Shown here: piece by piece, positions 13,741-29,717 of the stretch | Numbering within the stretch: position 1 is the stretch's first letter | Layout: every line of letters begins with the position of its first letter | NCBI GenBank assembly: GCA_016926155.1 | Contig: JAFGPC010000056.1 | Coordinates: forward strand, 1 to 50,586 | Reading direction: 5' to 3' | From: Sedimentisphaerales bacterium | GTDB taxonomy: Bacteria; Planctomycetota; Phycisphaerae; Sedimentisphaerales; Anaerohalosphaeraceae | Length of the DNA stretch: 50,586 bases | Notes under the pieces: model-generated | Seen by the model: the letters and a program-made list of their open reading frames with translations, nothing else | Told to the model about the DNA's origin: nothing | Database searches by the model: none | Made by a program: the position numbers and the translations under genes

Positions 13741-16700
13741 TTATGAACAGCCCATACTATTACCGCAGTTAAAACAGCGGTAGCAGGTTCCGTTTCGCAC
13801 TGTAATCGAACCACAGACATCACATGCCGGGGCATCGTCCTGGAAGTGCTCAAATTGGGCGTTGAACTGGTGCATGACCGACGCCTCGTTTGCCGTTCCA
13901 TCCTCACTGGTTACGACCGATGCGATTAGGGAAACAGTTCGATCGGCCAGGCGTTCGAATCGATCTGAACGAGGTAGGTTTGCTGCTTTGGAGCCATCCC
14001 GTTCGGCTGTTGGTTTGGGCTTTTTTTGTATTGATTTGGCTTCATCGATTTTTTTGGCCAGATCCTGGGTTTTTTCGACCAGTTCTTTGGCAGTCGTACC
14101 AGCCTTGCCGGAGACCGGAGCCGGTTTGGATCGATTGGGTGTATTCTTTTCGGCATAGCCCGGGATGAACTGACAGCCCATCCAGCAGAAGATATAGTCG
14201 ATCAGGCTCTTGGCAAACGGGATATTTTTATTGCTGGTCATACCGGACGGCTCAAAGCGGGCATGCCGGAACTTGTCAACCAGAGTAATCAGAGGCACAC
14301 CATACTGCAAAGCCATGGAGACGCATGTTCCCACAACATCCATCAGACCACCGACTGTGCTACCTTCCTTGGCCATGGTGATAAACAACTCACCCGGCTG
14401 GCCGTCATCGTATAGACCAACGGTTAAATAACCCTCGTGACCCGCAACGGAAAATTTATGAGTGATGCTGCTGCGCGTCTCGGGTAAACGTCGGCGGAAC
14501 GGTCGCGGTGATGGTTCTTCGATTTTGACTTCCTTTTTTCCCTGTTTTTCCACATTGACCGGCTGGATACGCTTGGAACCGTCACGATAGATAGCGATGG
14601 CTTTGATGCCCATCTTCCAGCCATCCATATAAGCGGTGGCGATTTCTTCGGTAGTGCTTTCCTTGGGCATATTAATTGTTTTGCTGATCGCTCCGGAAAG
14701 GAACGGCTGAACGGCTGCCATCATCCGCAGATGTGCCGTGTAATGGATGTGCCGTTTGCCGTTGACCGGTTTAAAAGCGCAGTCAAAGGTGGACAGGTGT
14801 TCTTCCCGCAACTGGGAAGCGGTCTCAACGGTGTCGTCCTGATCGATTTGATCGCAGATGCTTTTTATGTCGTCGGGGCTGTAACCCAATCGCTCCAGGG
14901 CCATAGGTACCGTACGGTTGACGATCTTGAGCATGCCGCCGCCGGCCAACAGTTTGTACTTGACCAGGGCGATATCGGGCTCGACCCCCGTTGTGTCGCA
15001 GTCCATCATGAAGCCGATCGTGCCGGTCGGGGCCAGTACGGTGGTCTGGGCGTTGCGATAGCCGGATTGTGTTCCCATGTCGTAGGCCTGATCCCATGCG
15101 TTTTTGGCGGCATTGAGCATATAGTCGGGACAGTGCACCTCGGGAATATTATAAGCGTGCTCCCGATGCATACGGATCACATTGAGCATGGACTCCTTGT
15201 TGGGCTCATAGTCCTTGAAGGGGCCTTTCTTGGAAGCGATTTCGGCGCTGATGCCGTAAGCGGTGCCGGTCAGAATCGCAGTAATTGCCCCGGCCCAGGC
15301 CCGTGCTTCATCCGAATCGTATGGCAGAGCCAGGCTCATGATCAGTGCGCCCAAGTTTGCATATCCCAGGCCCAACGGGCGAAAACGATGACTGTTTTCG
15401 GTGATCCGTGCTTCAGGATAGCTGCCGTTATCGACAAGGATTTCCTGGGCAATGATAAAGATACGGACGGCTTTCTGGAATGCTTCGATATCAAAGGTGC
15501 CGTCCGGTTTACGGAATTTCATTAGGTTCAGCGAAGCCAGGTTACAGGCGGAATTGTCGACGAACATGTATTCGCTGCATGGATTGGAAGCGTTGATCGG
15601 GCCGGAGTTGGGACAGGTGTGCCATTTGTTAATCGTGGTATGGAACTGCATGCCCGGGTCACCGCAGACGCGTGTACCTTCGGCGACCAGTTGCATCAAC
15701 TCACGTGCGGAATATTCACCGACCTCTTCGCCGGTCGTAATCGAGCGAGTTGCCCATTTGCCATCTTTTTCCACGGCTTCCATGAATTCATCGGTTGCAC
15801 GGACCGACAGGTTGCTGTTCTGGAACATAACGCTGTTATACGCTTCGTTGTTCAGATCCCCGCCATATCCCTGCTCGATCAGAGCCCAGGCTTTCTTTTC
15901 TTCCTCCGTTTTACAGGTGATAAATTCCTTGATGTCGGGGTGTTCCATCCGAAGAGACTGCATCTTGGCGGCCCGGCGAGTTTTTCCACCGGATTTTACG
16001 ACGGCGGCAATCTGATCGAATACCCGCATAAAACTCAGCGGCCCGGAGGGTTTTCCACCGCCGGAAAGCTTTTCCCGACTGCTTCGCAAGGTTGACAAGT
16101 CCGTTCCAGTACCCGAACCGTGCTTGAACAGCATGGCTTCGCTCCGGGCCAGGCGCATGATATCTTCCATGGTATCAGCGACCGACTGGATAAAGCATGC
16201 CGAAGCCTGTGGGTATTCATAGCTGTTGGTGCAGGGAGCAGCCATCTGTTTCTGCTGATCCCAGTAATAATTGTGTTCACTGCCGGTGATCCCATATACA
16301 TCGAACAAACCTACGTTGAACCAGACTGGGGAATTAAACGCTCCGTACTGGTTTACGCATAGCCAGGCCAGTTCATGATAGAAATTTTCGCAATCCTGTT
16401 CACTGGCAAAATAACCGTCCTTTTTACCCCGGTCGGCAATCCCTCTGGCAACACGATGGACCAACTGCTTGACCGAATATTCCCGTTCGCCCAATTCAAT
16501 ATCACCATAGAAGTATTTACTCACAACAACCTTGGTTGCCAATTGGCTCCATGAGGTAGGTACTTCGATATTGTTTTGTTCGAAAATGATTTTACCGTTC
16601 TCATCTGTGATCTTGGCTTGACGGATTTCCCATTCGATCTGATCGAAGGGATGCACGTTCGGGTCGGAAAAAGCCCGAGGCACTTTGAGCCCATCCATAG

Positions 16701-16782
16701 GCAATGCCTGACGGCTTTTCCACGGCTGAAATGACGTCGATGACGGATTTACGGTTTGTTTTGACATTTTTTCCTCAGCCAT
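13741..16782 (-). CDS. nrdJ: Vitamin B12-dependent ribonucleotide reductase (class II)
   Basis: The 1013-residue enzyme reduces ribonucleotides to deoxyribonucleotides using adenosylcobalamin, independently of oxygen. Features in order are the N-terminal SWSQLATKVVVSKYF block, ACFIQSVADTMEDI with the first redox Cys, GSGTGTDLSTLRS, SNPCSEYMF with the radical Cys, and APTGTIGFMMDCDTTGVEP. A TSCPD-type region follows (about 780-880), then a Lys-rich low-complexity linker. The C-terminal cysteine module (CDVCGS, CYRCFNCG, then a final Cys-Ser) may pass electrons or bind zinc. ATG 16782 has GGAGG 6 nt upstream, confirming MAEEKMSK. The 5' region before it contains several hairpins. Confidence 0.97.
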   Translation of the reverse strand: MAEEKMSKQTVNPSSTSFQPWKSRQALPMDGLKVPRAFSDPNVHPFDQIEWEIRQAKITDENGKIIFEQNNIEVPTSWSQLATKVVVSKYFYGDIELGEREYSVKQLVHRVARGIADRGKKDGYFASEQDCENFYHELAWLCVNQYGAFNSPVWFNVGLFDVYGITGSEHNYYWDQQKQMAAPCTNSYEYPQASACFIQSVADTMEDIMRLARSEAMLFKHGSGTGTDLSTLRSSREKLSGGGKPSGPLSFMRVFDQIAAVVKSGGKTRRAAKMQSLRMEHPDIKEFITCKTEEEKKAWALIEQGYGGDLNNEAYNSVMFQNSNLSVRATDEFMEAVEKDGKWATRSITTGEEVGEYSARELMQLVAEGTRVCGDPGMQFHTTINKWHTCPNSGPINASNPCSEYMFVDNSACNLASLNLMKFRKPDGTFDIEAFQKAVRIFIIAQEILVDNGSYPEARITENSHRFRPLGLGYANLGALIMSLALPYDSDEARAWAGAITAILTGTAYGISAEIASKKGPFKDYEPNKESMLNVIRMHREHAYNIPEVHCPDYMLNAAKNAWDQAYDMGTQSGYRNAQTTVLAPTGTIGFMMDCDTTGVEPDIALVKYKLLAGGGMLKIVNRTVPMALERLGYSPDDIKSICDQIDQDDTVETASQLREEHLSTFDCAFKPVNGKRHIHYTAHLRMMAAVQPFLSGAISKTINMPKESTTEEIATAYMDGWKMGIKAIAIYRDGSKRIQPVNVEKQGKKEVKIEEPSPRPFRRRLPETRSSITHKFSVAGHEGYLTVGLYDDGQPGELFITMAKEGSTVGGLMDVVGTCVSMALQYGVPLITLVDKFRHARFEPSGMTSNKNIPFAKSLIDYIFCWMGCQFIPGYAEKNTPNRSKPAPVSGKAGTTAKELVEKTQDLAKKIDEAKSIQKKPKPTAERDGSKAANLPRSDRFERLADRTVSLIASVVTSEDGTANEASVMHQFNAQFEHFQDDAPACDVCGSITVRNGTCYRCFNCGNSMGCS

Positions 16783-17966: not shown

Positions 17967-18076
17967 TTTATTGAGTCGCAGGAGATCGTAAGGAGCGAAG
18001 GGATTCCTCTTTGAAATAAACTAGAGAGAATGGTGTAATTCGAAACAGGGTGAAGTAATTTTTTGGAGGCAGAGTG

Positions 18077-19171
18077 ATGAAAAACAAAACAATACTGGCA
18101 TGTCTTGTCATGGCGCTACTGGCAGTACCCAGCTTTGGCGTCTCCATTCTAGCGCCGGGCGATTTTATTATTGCCGTGGATGCCGACGGTCTGGTTTCCA
18201 GTAGTGGATATCCAGACGGGGAAGCTCCTTTGTATGTGCTGGATGGCGACTCGGGCACCAAGTATCTGAACTTTGGAGGAGTAAACAGTGGATTTATCGT
18301 AACACTGGATTCTGCCTCTCAGGTGCAGAGCTTTACCCTGACAACCGCCAATGATGCTGTCGGCCGTGATCCGCTTGGTTGGGAAATCTATGGAACCAAC
18401 GAAGCGATCGTCAGTACCGACAACAGCACCGGTCTTGCGGAATACTGGACTCTTCTGGATTCCGGTACGGTAACGTTGCCGGATGATCGTTTTATGGTTG
18501 GACCGGTTGTGGCTGTTAATAATGCCGCTTCGTATTCTTCCTATAAAATGATCTATTCAGCTTTGAAGGATAACGGTGGATTGATGCAGGTTGCTGATGC
18601 CGCCTTTTACGCGAGTACAGACGGAACAGGATCCACTGTCCTGAGCCCTTCAAATTCGATTCTAGCTGTTCATATTGGTTGGAACAGTCGGTATCCAGGA
18701 GCTGAGAATCCGGCGAACCTGATCGACGGTTCACTGAACAAGTACCTGAACTTCGGTCAGGTAAACTCCGGATTCATCGTAACGCCGGGCATGGGAGCCA
18801 CGATTGTCAACGGTTTTCAGATCACAACCGCCAATGATGCCGCGGAACGCGATCCGACAACATGGGAACTGTACGGTACCAACGACGCCATCGCCAGCGG
18901 CGACAACAGTGATGGAGAAGGTGAAAGCTGGACCCTGATCGCCTCGGGCGACTTGACTCTGCCGGAAGAGCGGGATACGCTTGCGGATATCGTTAATTTC
19001 GAGAACGATATGATGTTTGCCTCCTATAAGCTCATTTTCCCGACAGTCAAGGATGCCGATGCAGCCAACTCGATGCAGATCGCCGAGATTCAGTTCTTTG
19101 GTATTCCCGAGCCGGCAACCCTTTGTCTGCTTGGTTTGGGTGGTCTGGCACTGCTTCGCCGTCGTTCCTAA
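18077..19171 (+). CDS. PEP-CTERM-anchored exported protein with two tandem beta-sandwich-like domains
   Basis: The 364-residue protein starts at ATG 18077, which has GGAGG 7 nt upstream (a GTG one codon earlier is too close to it). A signal peptide ends near residue 22 (PSFGVS). The C-terminus is a textbook PEP-CTERM sorting signal: IPEPATL, a short hydrophobic helix (LCLLGLGGLALL) and RRRS. It directs sorting by exosortase and attachment to the cell surface or an extracellular matrix. Between them are two homologous halves, each with LNFGxVNSGFIVT, an FTLTTANDA/FQITTANDA motif, ERDP/GRDP and WELYGTN/WEIYGTN segments. They resemble discoidin-like carbohydrate-binding folds, but this is inference. 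A consensus promoter and a strong terminator make it a highly expressed single-gene unit. Confidence 0.9.
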   Translation: MKNKTILACLVMALLAVPSFGVSILAPGDFIIAVDADGLVSSSGYPDGEAPLYVLDGDSGTKYLNFGGVNSGFIVTLDSASQVQSFTLTTANDAVGRDPLGWEIYGTNEAIVSTDNSTGLAEYWTLLDSGTVTLPDDRFMVGPVVAVNNAASYSSYKMIYSALKDNGGLMQVADAAFYASTDGTGSTVLSPSNSILAVHIGWNSRYPGAENPANLIDGSLNKYLNFGQVNSGFIVTPGMGATIVNGFQITTANDAAERDPTTWELYGTNDAIASGDNSDGEGESWTLIASGDLTLPEERDTLADIVNFENDMMFASYKLIFPTVKDADAANSMQIAEIQFFGIPEPATLCLLGLGGLALLRRRS

Positions 19172-19205
19172 ACAGTTTGGAAATTGCAGAAGTAAGCTTA
19201 ATATG

Positions 19206-19242
19206 GGACGCCTACCGAGAAATCGGTCAGGCGTCCTTTTTT
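19206..19242 (+). terminator. Intrinsic terminator after the PEP-CTERM gene
   Basis: GGACGCCT (19206-19213) pairs with AGGCGTCC (19229-19236), with further CCGA/TCGG pairing inside, and is followed by six T residues (19237-19242). Confidence 0.93.
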
Positions 19243-19373
19243 CTTTGGGAAAACAATACCGTTTTTCTTTTTTGTCATATAAGCAGAATAAAGTGATTTT
19301 ATAAACGGATTCTGCAATATCTATTTGGCGGTCCGACGTTGTGAATCTAATTATGCAATGAGAGGATGATACG

Positions 19374-20018
19374 ATGAAAACGAATACTGTTTTACTTGTC
19401 ATTCTATTGACGGCCATTGTAACACAATCTTCTTTAGGTGCTCTTAATGCATATCTAACCCTTGAAGGGCAGAACCAGGGAGCGATCGAAGGCAGTGTGA
19501 CCCAGGCAGGAAGAGAAGGCCAGATCATGGTAATCGCCACAAGCCACTCTGTCTCCTCTCCTCGCGATCCGGTAAGCGGTCTACTTACAGGAAAACGCCA
19601 GCATCAACCTTTCCGAATAACCAAAGAAATTGATCGATCCACTCCTCTGCTGATGAATGCCCTGGTGAATAATGAAAGACTGACTCGGTTTGAACTGCGA
19701 TATTGGCAGCCGTCCGCTGCAGGTCCGGAAGTTCAGTACTACACCATAATCCTGCACGATGCATACATCGTCAGCATTCAACAGGAAATGTTGAATAACA
19801 AGTATCCCGAGAACATGCAGTATAAAGAACGGGAGCATATCTCCTTTATGTATCGAGCCATTGAATGGGTATTCGAAGACGGTGGAATCGCCGCTACTGA
19901 TGACTGGAGCTACAGTGGTGGCGATGTTCTGGTCAGCGACCTGACAGGGGATGGCCAGGTGAATCTGCTTGATTTGGCGATCCTGGCCCAGGAATGGATG
20001 TTGGAAGGGCGTCGCTGA
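19374..20018 (+). CDS. Secreted Hcp-like protein with C-terminal dockerin-like EF-hand
   Basis: The 214-residue protein starts at ATG 19374 behind AGAGGATG. It has a signal peptide (to about residue 22, SSLGA). Residues 25-172 look like the Hcp (type VI secretion tube) fold: AYLTLEGQNQGAIEGSVT, IMVIATSHSVSSPRD, the GLLTGKRQHQPFRITKEID block and a C-terminal ISFMYRAIEWVFEDGG. The tail (188-208) carries one Ca-binding loop of dockerin type, SDLTGDGQVNLLDLAILAQ, with Asp189, Thr191, Asp193 and Asp200. Classical dockerins have two such repeats and only one is visible. No other type VI gene (sheath, VgrG, baseplate, ClpV) is nearby, so this is more likely an exported structural or binding protein than a secretion component. 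Confidence 0.8.
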   Translation: MKTNTVLLVILLTAIVTQSSLGALNAYLTLEGQNQGAIEGSVTQAGREGQIMVIATSHSVSSPRDPVSGLLTGKRQHQPFRITKEIDRSTPLLMNALVNNERLTRFELRYWQPSAAGPEVQYYTIILHDAYIVSIQQEMLNNKYPENMQYKEREHISFMYRAIEWVFEDGGIAATDDWSYSGGDVLVSDLTGDGQVNLLDLAILAQEWMLEGRR

Positions 20019-20217: not shown

Positions 20218-21570
20218 ATGGGGGATATAACGAAAAAAGACGATGCAAATCGGCTTGCGGAGCTCCGCGACAAGATCAGAACTTTTCCGACGACACCGGG
20301 TTTGTATTTCATGAAGGCCGAAGGCGACCTGGTGTTATATATCGGCAAGGCCAAGAACCTGCGCAGCCGGGTGGCCAGCTATTTCCAGCCAGGCAGCGAT
20401 CTGCACGCCAGCCGCGGGCCCAAGATCGTTGAAATGGTTTCCAAAGTGAAGACGGTTGACTACCTGGAACTTCCCAACGAGGTCGATGCGATCCTGCAGG
20501 AAGCCCGCCTTGTCAAAGACATCCGCCCGCCCTATAACACCGACCTCGTGGACGACAAAACCTTTCCCTATCTGGAGATTACGACACGCGATCCGTTTCC
20601 GGGCGTGTATATCACCCGCAATCCGAAAAGCGCCCGCAGCCGGCTGTTCGGGCCGTTTACCGGCGTCAATGATCTGCGGGCAGTCCTGGTCGTTCTTCAG
20701 AAGATCTACAAATTTCGCACCTGCAAGCTGGACATTCGGGAGGATGATCCTAAGCGACGATTCTTTCGGCCCTGCCTGCTGCATAATATCAAGCAGTGCA
20801 CAGCACCGTGCGGGGATCGGATCGACAGGGCTTCCTACCGGCAGATCATCAAAGACCTGATCCGGTTTCTGCAGTCCAAGCGATCTACCATCCTGCGACA
20901 GTTGAAAAAGCAGATGGAAGAGGCCGCCGAAAACAGGGATTATGAAGCCGCCGCGATGGTTCGGGATCGAATCCGGTTGATCGAACGGCTCGATGATCGG
21001 GGTACGGTCGAGGGCAATGTCCAGCCGGAGGTATTTGCCGGCGATCCGACGGAGGCGATGATTCAATTGCAGAAACTCATGGAAGCCGATCAGCCTGTTC
21101 GTGTGATCGAAGGTTTTGATATCGCCCATATCTCCGGTGCCGAGACGGTCGGTTCGCTGGTGCAATTTATCGACGGCAAGCCGTTCAAGAACGGCTATCG
21201 GCGCTATAAGATCCGGACCGTAACCGGGGTGGACGATTACGCCGGCATCCAGGAAATTATTACCCGGCGATACACGCGGGCGATGAAAGGGGAGGAGTTA
21301 TGGCCCGATCTGGTGCTGATCGACGGTGGTATCGGCCAATTGCATGCCGCCGAAGAGGCGTTTGCGCGGATGAATGCTCCGCTGCCGCGTCTGGCCTCGA
21401 TCGCCAAAAAGGAGGAATTGATTTATCTCCACGGGCGGGATGAGCCGATCCGCCTGCCGGCCAATTCCCCCGTCCGGAAGCTGCTGCAATACGTCCGCGA
21501 TGAGGCCCACCGCTTCGCCCAGCATTATCACCATATCCTCCGCAGCAAGAGTGTTCTCAACAAGGATTGA
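20218..21570 (+). CDS. uvrC: UvrC-family excinuclease, short form lacking the C-terminal HhH domain
   Basis: The protein has 450 residues against about 600 for typical UvrC. Domains in order are the GIY-YIG nuclease (GLYFMK at 28-33, YIGKAKNLRSR at 41-51, catalytic Glu in LQEARLVK near 98), Cys-rich segment CLLHNIKQCTAPCG near 180-195, UVR/UvrB-binding helix near 222-255, and the RNase H-like nuclease with Asp in GFDIAHISG and LVLIDGGIGQLH and His in DEAHRFAQ. It stops shortly after that His, so the (HhH)2 DNA-binding domain is missing. Both incision sites appear intact. The downstream DNA encodes no HhH remnant in any frame before the convergent gene, so the short form does not look like a simple frameshift. 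No clear ribosome-binding site precedes ATG 20218. Confidence 0.9.
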   Translation: MGDITKKDDANRLAELRDKIRTFPTTPGLYFMKAEGDLVLYIGKAKNLRSRVASYFQPGSDLHASRGPKIVEMVSKVKTVDYLELPNEVDAILQEARLVKDIRPPYNTDLVDDKTFPYLEITTRDPFPGVYITRNPKSARSRLFGPFTGVNDLRAVLVVLQKIYKFRTCKLDIREDDPKRRFFRPCLLHNIKQCTAPCGDRIDRASYRQIIKDLIRFLQSKRSTILRQLKKQMEEAAENRDYEAAAMVRDRIRLIERLDDRGTVEGNVQPEVFAGDPTEAMIQLQKLMEADQPVRVIEGFDIAHISGAETVGSLVQFIDGKPFKNGYRRYKIRTVTGVDDYAGIQEIITRRYTRAMKGEELWPDLVLIDGGIGQLHAAEEAFARMNAPLPRLASIAKKEELIYLHGRDEPIRLPANSPVRKLLQYVRDEAHRFAQHYHHILRSKSVLNKD

Positions 21571-27884: not shown

Positions 27885-29717
27885 ATGAAAATACGGCAGG
27901 ATAATTCGGTTGGGATTGTCGAAACTCAGATTGTGCGAGTTGTCGATGCCGATGCACCCCTGACACTGACCAGTGGCAAGACTCTAGGCCCCATCGATGT
28001 CGCTTACGAAACCTATGGAACATTAAATGAGGCTCGTGACAATGTCGTTCTGATCTGCCATGCCCTCAGCGGCAATGCACATGTTGCCGGCTACAATGGT
28101 CCGGATGACCGCAAGCCCGGCTGGTGGGATGAAATGATCGGACCGGGCAAAGGTATTGATACAAACAAGTATTTCGTTGTTTGCTCGAATGTATTGGGCG
28201 GCTGCTGCGGCACGACGGGCCCGTCGACCGTCAATCCTTCTACGGAAAAGCCGTACGGCCTGGAATTTCCGATCATCACGATTGCCGACATGGTTAACGT
28301 CCAGAAACGCCTGCTCGACAAGCTGGGCATTGATAGAATCCTGTGTGTTGTGGGAGGTTCAATGGGCGGAATGCAGGTCCTGCAATGGGCCATTGCCTAC
28401 CCCGATATGGTTCAGAATGTCGCGGCCATTGCGACGACGACTCGCCTTGGAGCGCAGGCCATCGCTTTCGATGCCGTCGGCCGTAACGCCATTCTAGCCG
28501 ATGGGTGCTTTGCCAATGGACAATATCATGACAAGGACACCCCCGCCCATGGTCTGTCCATCGCCCGGATGGTGGGACACATTACCTACCTATCCGAGGC
28601 GGGGATGCATGAAAAATTCGGACGCCAGCTCCGCCAGGCCCAGGATTACCGCTACGATTTCAATTCCGAGTTTGCCGTCGAAACTTATCTCGATTACCAG
28701 GGCCAGACCTTTGTGGAGCGGTTTGACGCCAACAGCTATCTATATATCACCAAGGCGATGGACTATTTCGATCTGGCCAAGGAACACGGGGATTTACCAT
28801 CGGCATTCCGTAACACCAAGTGCGGTTTTCTGGTTGTCAGCTTCAGCAGTGACTGGTTATTTACTCCCAAACAATCGGAAGAAATCTGCGATGCCCTGAC
28901 GTCGCTGTGTCGGCAGGTCAGCTACTGCAATATCGACTCTCCCTATGGCCACGACGCATTTCTGCTGGAGCCGGAGACACTGGGGAGCATTCTATCGGGT
29001 TTCCTGGATAGTACGTGGAACGACATCCGCGGCGTTTTGGATCGTTCCGCCAAAGGTCCCTCACCCCGATATAAAGACCACAATGACGCCAGACGGATTC
29101 GTGTCGATTATGAATTGATCGAGTCATTGATCGAACCGGAAAGCAAGGTGCTGGATGTCGGCTGTGGAGACGGCGAACTGCTGGTGCGCCTCATCCGGGA
29201 CAAACAAATCCAGGCCGAGGGGATCGAGCTGGATCAGGATATGGTCGTGCACTGCATCGGCAGGGGGCTTCCCGTAATTCACAGGGATATTGAGCGGGGC
29301 CTGGGAACCTATTGCCAACAGTGCTTTGATTATGCCATACTTTCCCAGACCGTTCAGACAGTTAAAGACCCTGCTTTGGTATTCCGGGAGATGCATCGGG
29401 TTGCAAAAAAGGTCATCGTCAGCTTTCCCAACTTCGCCCACTGGATGTGTCGGCTGCAGTTACTACTGGGCGGCAGGGCCCCTGTAACGGGGCAGCTCCC
29501 ATTCGGCTGGCATAATTCCCCCAATATCCACTTTCTCTCGCTTCAGGATTTCGATGAGTTCTGTCACCAATTAGGATATAGGATCGAGAAAAAAATTCCA
29601 CTGGGAAAGCGTCGAAGCAGGCCAGTGCGAGTTTTACCCAATCTCCTGGCTACCCAGGCGGTTTATGTTACATGCAGGAAAAAAATAGATCACGAATGCC
29701 CGCAATCCTGTCGATGA
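27885..29717 (+). CDS. metXW: Fusion of homoserine O-acetyltransferase (MetX) and MetW-type methyltransferase
   Basis: This is a single 610-residue frame. Residues 1-385 are an alpha/beta-hydrolase MetX with nucleophile Ser159 in GGSMGG, Asp323 in SSDWLF and His356 in YGHDAFL, plus GPSTVNPST near 112-120. It acetylates (or succinylates) homoserine, the first committed step of methionine synthesis. After a linker (about 386-403), residues 404-600 are a MetW-type protein with VLDVGCGDGELL (SAM-site motif), an internal ILSQTVQTVKDP and SFPNFAHWMCR. metX and metW are usually adjacent genes and MetW is thought to assist MetX. Here they are joined in one polypeptide. No strong ribosome-binding site precedes ATG 27885. 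Confidence 0.95.
   Translation: MKIRQDNSVGIVETQIVRVVDADAPLTLTSGKTLGPIDVAYETYGTLNEARDNVVLICHALSGNAHVAGYNGPDDRKPGWWDEMIGPGKGIDTNKYFVVCSNVLGGCCGTTGPSTVNPSTEKPYGLEFPIITIADMVNVQKRLLDKLGIDRILCVVGGSMGGMQVLQWAIAYPDMVQNVAAIATTTRLGAQAIAFDAVGRNAILADGCFANGQYHDKDTPAHGLSIARMVGHITYLSEAGMHEKFGRQLRQAQDYRYDFNSEFAVETYLDYQGQTFVERFDANSYLYITKAMDYFDLAKEHGDLPSAFRNTKCGFLVVSFSSDWLFTPKQSEEICDALTSLCRQVSYCNIDSPYGHDAFLLEPETLGSILSGFLDSTWNDIRGVLDRSAKGPSPRYKDHNDARRIRVDYELIESLIEPESKVLDVGCGDGELLVRLIRDKQIQAEGIELDQDMVVHCIGRGLPVIHRDIERGLGTYCQQCFDYAILSQTVQTVKDPALVFREMHRVAKKVIVSFPNFAHWMCRLQLLLGGRAPVTGQLPFGWHNSPNIHFLSLQDFDEFCHQLGYRIEKKIPLGKRRSRPVRVLPNLLATQAVYVTCRKKIDHECPQSCR

Follow-up and report, generated by a model that had tools for sequence, protein, structure and literature searches.

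The window (the whole stretch of 50,586 nucleotides that was analysed) encodes an Hcp protein. We read it as the tube protein of a type VI secretion system (T6SS) that has become an exported protein working without a T6SS, probably in the form of rings, and we put the probability of this reading at about 0.6. The open reading frame of 214 amino acids was present on the plus strand exactly as the earlier note had described it. Export and independence from a T6SS are very likely as judged from the sequence, while ring formation is probable by analogy with other Hcps.

The window protein belongs to the Hcp domain family. Pfam T6SS_HCP (PF05638) matched residues 27-166 over the whole profile with 113.4 bits against a cut-off of 23.5 (E=1.2e-32), and NCBIfam TIGR03344 scored 156.9 bits against a cut-off of 58.9 (E=4e-46). 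The Hcp-type domain proposed in the earlier note, which a mismatch in a profile search would have undone, is therefore well founded. Among PDB sequences the protein matched Hcp3 (3he1, E=1.3e-34), while a search of PHROGs returned weak matches only, without names. The AlphaFold model had a pLDDT of 72.8 overall and mostly 75-95 across the Hcp domain, the signal peptide and the tail being its low-confidence regions, and its 22 best matches in the PDB were all Hcps (E=7.6e-17 for 6a2v; TMt 0.91 for 4hkh). The alignment indicated that the protein keeps the helix, the extended loop and the C-terminal strand of Hcp. In solved Hcps, the extended loop caps the helix of the neighbour within the ring (PMC4469607).

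The 22-residue N-terminus (MKTNTVLLVILLTAIVTQSSLG, followed by ALNAYL) had a hydrophobicity of 3.45 over 11 residues, under a rule in which proteins called exported reached at least 2.07 and those called signal-less at most 1.83. The alignment with signal-less relatives began exactly at ALNAYL; these relatives start with MALNAYL, and the mature window protein would start with ALNAYL. Thus, going by the alignment, the predicted signal peptide is joined exactly at the site of the old initiator methionine. The MK start and the hydrophobic run were retained in the three relatives L031, L032 and L061. We also considered a wrongly assigned start codon, with an internal start giving a signal-less Hcp. 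This was rejected, as there is no start near ALNAYL: downstream of the ATG, the reading frame next offers TTG (codon 12), GTG (codon 42) and ATG (codon 52), none of which would give back a signal-less Hcp. By the hydrophobicity rule, the signal peptide claimed in the earlier note held up.

Neither of the genes flanking the Hcp gene is T6SS-related (Table 1). The upstream PEP-CTERM neighbour was not conserved beside related exported Hcps. Between the two genes lies a terminator-like hairpin, which was seen on reading the sequence and was not reported by a simple scan; it suggests a separate transcription unit for the Hcp gene. The downstream UvrC-like protein is short (450 aa) and combines GIY-YIG, UVR and RNase H parts; a helix-hairpin-helix match was absent in the Pfam scan.

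Table 1. Positions of the features discussed, in the window unless a locus is named
Feature	Position	Strand	Basis
Whole gene, Sec-exported Hcp with half-dockerin tail (predicted)	19374..20018	+	profile and PDB matches, purifying selection
Shine-Dalgarno-like GAGAGG, 8 nt 5' of the ATG	19360..19365	+	sequence reading
Signal peptide MKTNTVLLVILLTAIVTQSSLG, cleavage probably SLG/A	19374..19439	+	hydrophobicity rule, alignment of relatives
Hcp (TssD) domain, residues 23-179	19440..19910	+	PF05638, TIGR03344, AlphaFold model
Extended loop, residues 58-79	19545..19610	+	alignment to PDB Hcps and relatives
C-terminal tail, linker and half dockerin, 35 residues	19911..20015	+	profile match, model
Single EF-hand Ca loop DLTGDGQVNLLD, residues 189-200, dockerin type I	19938..19973	+	PF00404
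Terminator-like bulged GC hairpin, then T run, between PEP-CTERM and Hcp genes	19205..19243	+	sequence reading
PEP-CTERM protein with weak discoidin-like (F5/8 type C) matches, upstream neighbour	18074..19171	+	Pfam/NCBIfam scan
UvrC-like protein, downstream neighbour, function unrelated to Hcp	20218..21570	+	Pfam scan
ORF, N-part resembling homoserine O-acetyltransferase (MetX), C-part MetW-type methyltransferase	27885-29717	+	sequence reading only
Class II (B12-dependent) ribonucleotide reductase with TSCPD domain	13741-16782	-
Six Hcp domains in one chain, L059	3836-8503	-	domain scan
Six Hcp domains in one chain, L060	4408-7566	-	domain scan
WGENIGW-repeat protein	L055:5758-6399; L062:4264-4968; L063:361-1032; L071:4297-5028	-
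WGENIGW-repeat protein	L174:5955-6599; L175:9559-10203; L178:3-590	-

We searched the whole genome of the organism (G000; 5.0 Mb, 96% complete) for two T6SS markers, TssC and Hcp. The TssC/VipB sheath protein (PF05943) had no match in this 96%-complete genome, and the window protein was its only Hcp. The earlier note had stated that no type VI genes are close, had asked how many paralogues there are, and had named a T6SS locus with a Sec-less Hcp in the same genome as evidence against it; no such locus was found, and for TssC the absence extends from the neighbourhood to the genome. A T6SS tube protein is expected in a genome with TssC and without a Sec signal. Here the N-terminus is signal-peptide-like and TssC is missing, and by these checks the window protein is not a T6SS tube protein. 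A T6SS elsewhere in the genome was likewise rejected on the absence of TssC, with a positive control within the organism's own family. In that family, Hcp occurred in 10 of 39 genomes. Nine of these had an exported Hcp, and none of the nine had TssC, including one that is a single 4.25-Mb contig (G056); the only member of the family with TssC (G317) carries an Hcp without a signal peptide, and the two genes lie 0.5 kb apart.

The same pattern was seen when 298 genomes of the class were sampled, with Hcp in 72 and TssC in 54. TssC was absent in 19 of the 20 genomes with exported or six-domain Hcps, the lone exported-Hcp genome with TssC (G163) carrying a signal-less Hcp too, and was present in 44 of the 45 with signal-less Hcps only (Fisher p=3e-14, a value that ignores kinship). 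This count took the Hcp genomes whose proteins were inspected, leaving out the fragmentary G265 and six others. A wider sample of the phylum added further TssC-less genomes with exported Hcps (G373, G392, G453, G510 and G642). It also held TssC-less genomes with signal-less Hcps (G641, G657) or ambiguous ones (G414, G643), and so the rule is not absolute. Hcp serves as a T6SS marker. Since the exported form marks genomes without TssC, T6SS calls based on Hcp can be wrong in Planctomycetota.

We further evaluated the C-terminal tail, which the earlier note had described as dockerin-like. What stood is a canonical 12-residue Ca loop (DLTGDGQVNLLD) meeting the dockerin pattern DxNxDGxVNxxD; what did not is a whole dockerin, since only one of the two EF-hand repeats of dockerin type I was found in the tail, and its PF00404 score of 16.8 bits (profile positions 2-22 of 57) lies below the cut-off of 22.9. 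The AlphaFold model placed a low-confidence helix at residues 198-212. No PEP-CTERM motif was matched in the protein in the Pfam and NCBIfam scans. A partnership with cohesin, which the earlier note had wanted checked, was rejected: cohesin (PF00963) had no match in the genome at E of 1 or below, the dockerin is a half one, and the tail is common to many other proteins. At a loose threshold PF00404 gave 118 matches in the genome, and many of them covered just the first repeat. Nine of 20 sampled weak matches showed the Ca loop by pattern, and in all nine the last loop began 24-31 residues before the stop codon (26 in the Hcp). Examples of such one-loop tails in this genome are L120, L121, L126, L129, L130, L132, L133 and L135. 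As the tail is found on many proteins and cohesin is absent, it looks like a common C-terminal tag rather than a cohesin ligand, perhaps a general sorting or anchoring tag in this genome. For other Planctomycetes, a 'planctosome' built on cohesin and dockerin has been put forward (PMC6461901), and in line with that idea there may be a distant cohesin-like partner.

The relationships of the window protein point to an origin from a T6SS Hcp. Its closest signal-less relatives were 64-67% identical, and the nearest of them mostly adjoin TssC and other T6SS genes (clusters identified from sequence, without a profile scan). One signal-less member of its lineage, L157, comes from a planctomycete with TssC (G571). 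The window protein, L031, L032 and L061 formed one exported half-dockerin clade with a support of 94, within which L061 lacks nine residues of the Hcp domain, a loss that counts against the ring reading. The whole Hcp tree requires 12 switches between the T6-type and the remaining Hcps, where shuffled labels give 35, and exported Hcps took several separate placements. A single origin of all dockerin-tailed Hcps was compatible with the tree test (p-AU 0.625).

Exported Hcps were found in several other designs. In stalked Hcps, a hydrophobic segment at the N-terminus leads into a stalk resembling '(P)PTMKTLDEIY' (L029, L053, L055, L062-L064, L066, L102, L107-L109, L113 and L114, for example); two others (L089 and L091) are PEP-CTERM-tailed, and a second half-dockerin group comprises L056, L058, L068-L070 and L112. 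Genome G182 encodes four exported Hcps, and some exported Hcps are strongly diverged, with long branches on the tree. At seven loci, a protein that looks secreted is encoded beside a stalked exported Hcp on the same strand; it has roughly four repeats of the 'AWGENIGWINF' type, and dockerin-like segments lie close to its C-terminus. Two members were scanned and matched no Pfam or NCBIfam family; this protein may be a partner of the exported Hcp.

Proteins with six Hcp domains in one chain (L059 and L060) were found in two genomes of the same planctomycete family, in neither of which TssC was detected. These proteins belong to other Hcp lineages than the window protein. A LEPR-XLL motif precedes the six domains (22 bits in L060; 15.8 in L059, against a cut-off of 17), and L059 additionally bears PKD and Ig-like domains. 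The domains of a single protein were 42-56% identical in one case and 77-92% in the other, against 19-33% across the two proteins, which favours two independent six-fold amplifications, but a single origin was compatible with the tree test (p-AU 0.52), and we do not claim independence. An Hcp ring has six subunits. The equal number of domains per chain is suggestive of ring geometry, with two cases at most.

In a T6SS tube, hexamers of Hcp are stacked head to tail. To place the tail on such a ring, we used the ungapped alignment, in which a window residue equals the EAEC Hcp1 residue plus 21. In EAEC Hcp1 the helix packs against the last strands of the neighbour, the C-terminal Ser158 lies in the ring-to-ring contact, and the substitutions N93W and S158W block stacking (PMC3925092). 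By the offset, the tail starts just past the equivalent of Ser158 (residue 179), that is, at the stacking face, and this favours discrete rings over long tubes. The step is a weak one, since Hcp-toxin fusions, in which Hcp is extended at the C-terminus, are known in working T6SSs. In the proposed mechanism, the Sec system would carry the monomer across the inner membrane and the signal peptide would be cut at SLG/A. The exported domain would then fold and assemble into the usual six-membered ring, with six Ca-binding tails hanging from one face. The hole of an Hcp ring is about 40 Angstrom wide. The ring may be a scaffold at the surface or in the matrix, or hold small partner proteins in its hole; such a role, rather than another, has somewhat less than even odds.

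The exported Hcp may instead be a monomer, a stable beta-barrel used for display or binding without a ring, which the tail would sort to the surface as it would many other tagged proteins of the genome. When we compared exported and T6SS Hcps, the residues of the ring contacts were not better conserved than the rest (difference 0.014; 72 of 156 shifts were as high). This result is neutral as to a preferential conservation of the contacts, and the ring claim therefore rests on knowledge of the family and on the six-domain proteins, and not on the pattern of the window protein itself. The lack of preference speaks for a monomer, and the high divergence of some exported Hcps and the occurrence of the same half-dockerin tail at the end of other proteins of the genome also fit. 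Against it, both multi-domain proteins have exactly six Hcp domains, and the window protein retains the helix, the extended loop and the C-terminal strand. We consider the monomer unlikely, though a serious alternative to exported rings.

An exported ring could also act as a decoy or sponge in the envelope, binding the Hcp-carried effectors that arrive from the T6SS of other bacteria. An effector is usually bound by its cognate Hcp only, which speaks against a decoy, and our comparison of neighbourhoods found no partner gene conserved beside the window protein's own clade. Indirectly in its favour, the exported form occurs in genomes without a TssC of their own, and Hcp rings bind effectors in their lumen (PMC8262886). 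On balance we find a decoy improbable.

That the protein is still a T6SS part, paired with a contractile machine elsewhere and carrying a signal peptide by accident, is strongly disfavoured. The strong Hcp match and the identity to Hcps of T6SS clusters would agree with it, but TssC is absent from the 96%-complete genome and from the family's other eight exported-Hcp genomes, there are no T6SS neighbours, and the signal peptide is retained throughout the exported clade. A functionless leftover decaying after loss of a T6SS is the least credible of all: the patchy distribution of Hcp in the family would suit it, but against L031 the Hcp part (157 codons) had a pN of 0.16, far below the pS of 0.87 (synonymous sites being saturated, the two are given without a ratio), which indicates purifying selection, and decay would not supply added parts such as the signal peptide and the tail.

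Together, the export signal, the missing TssC and the lack of a second Hcp agree with the proposal in the earlier note that an Hcp fold is reused outside the cytoplasm, and this proposal is strengthened by the relatives that share the architecture and by the purifying selection. For the adhesive role and the tubes or rings outside the cell that the note also envisaged, we obtained indirect support for rings only. A part of a weapon was apparently put to another use, because related genomes show the same conversion many times. It is conceivable, at somewhat less than even odds, that Hcp was domesticated several times in Planctomycetota into a family of Sec-exported rings, which carry half dockerins, PEP-CTERM or N-terminal stalks as tags, in two cases built as covalent six-domain rings, which act outside the cytoplasm without a contractile machine. 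If exported Hcps do form rings, a tube module related to phage tails became a structural unit outside the cell, and nature offers covalent hexamers in the six-domain chains, with a geometry that is directly testable.

A 2021 survey mentioned PEP-CTERM-tailed Hcps and then filtered them out, giving no description of them in its available part (PMC8262886). Beyond that remark, we found no description of exported Hcps as a functional group in the open-licence literature. Those proteins, of which we saw two (L089 and L091), resemble the window protein in joining Hcp to a tail typical of exported proteins; the window protein carries a half dockerin instead of PEP-CTERM. With dockerin type I (PF00404) its tail shares one canonical Ca loop and a predicted helix, but has one repeat rather than two, a score below the cut-off and no cohesin in the genome. 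Hcp-toxin fusions likewise have an addition at the C-terminus of Hcp, whereas the window protein has an export signal and no toxin domain. The Hcp/TssD of T6SSs (3he1, Hcp3 of P. aeruginosa; 4hkh, Hcp1 of EAEC) has the same whole domain, fold and extended loop, and the nearest T6SS members are 64-67% identical; from these the window protein is set apart by its signal peptide, its EF-hand tail and a genome without TssC.
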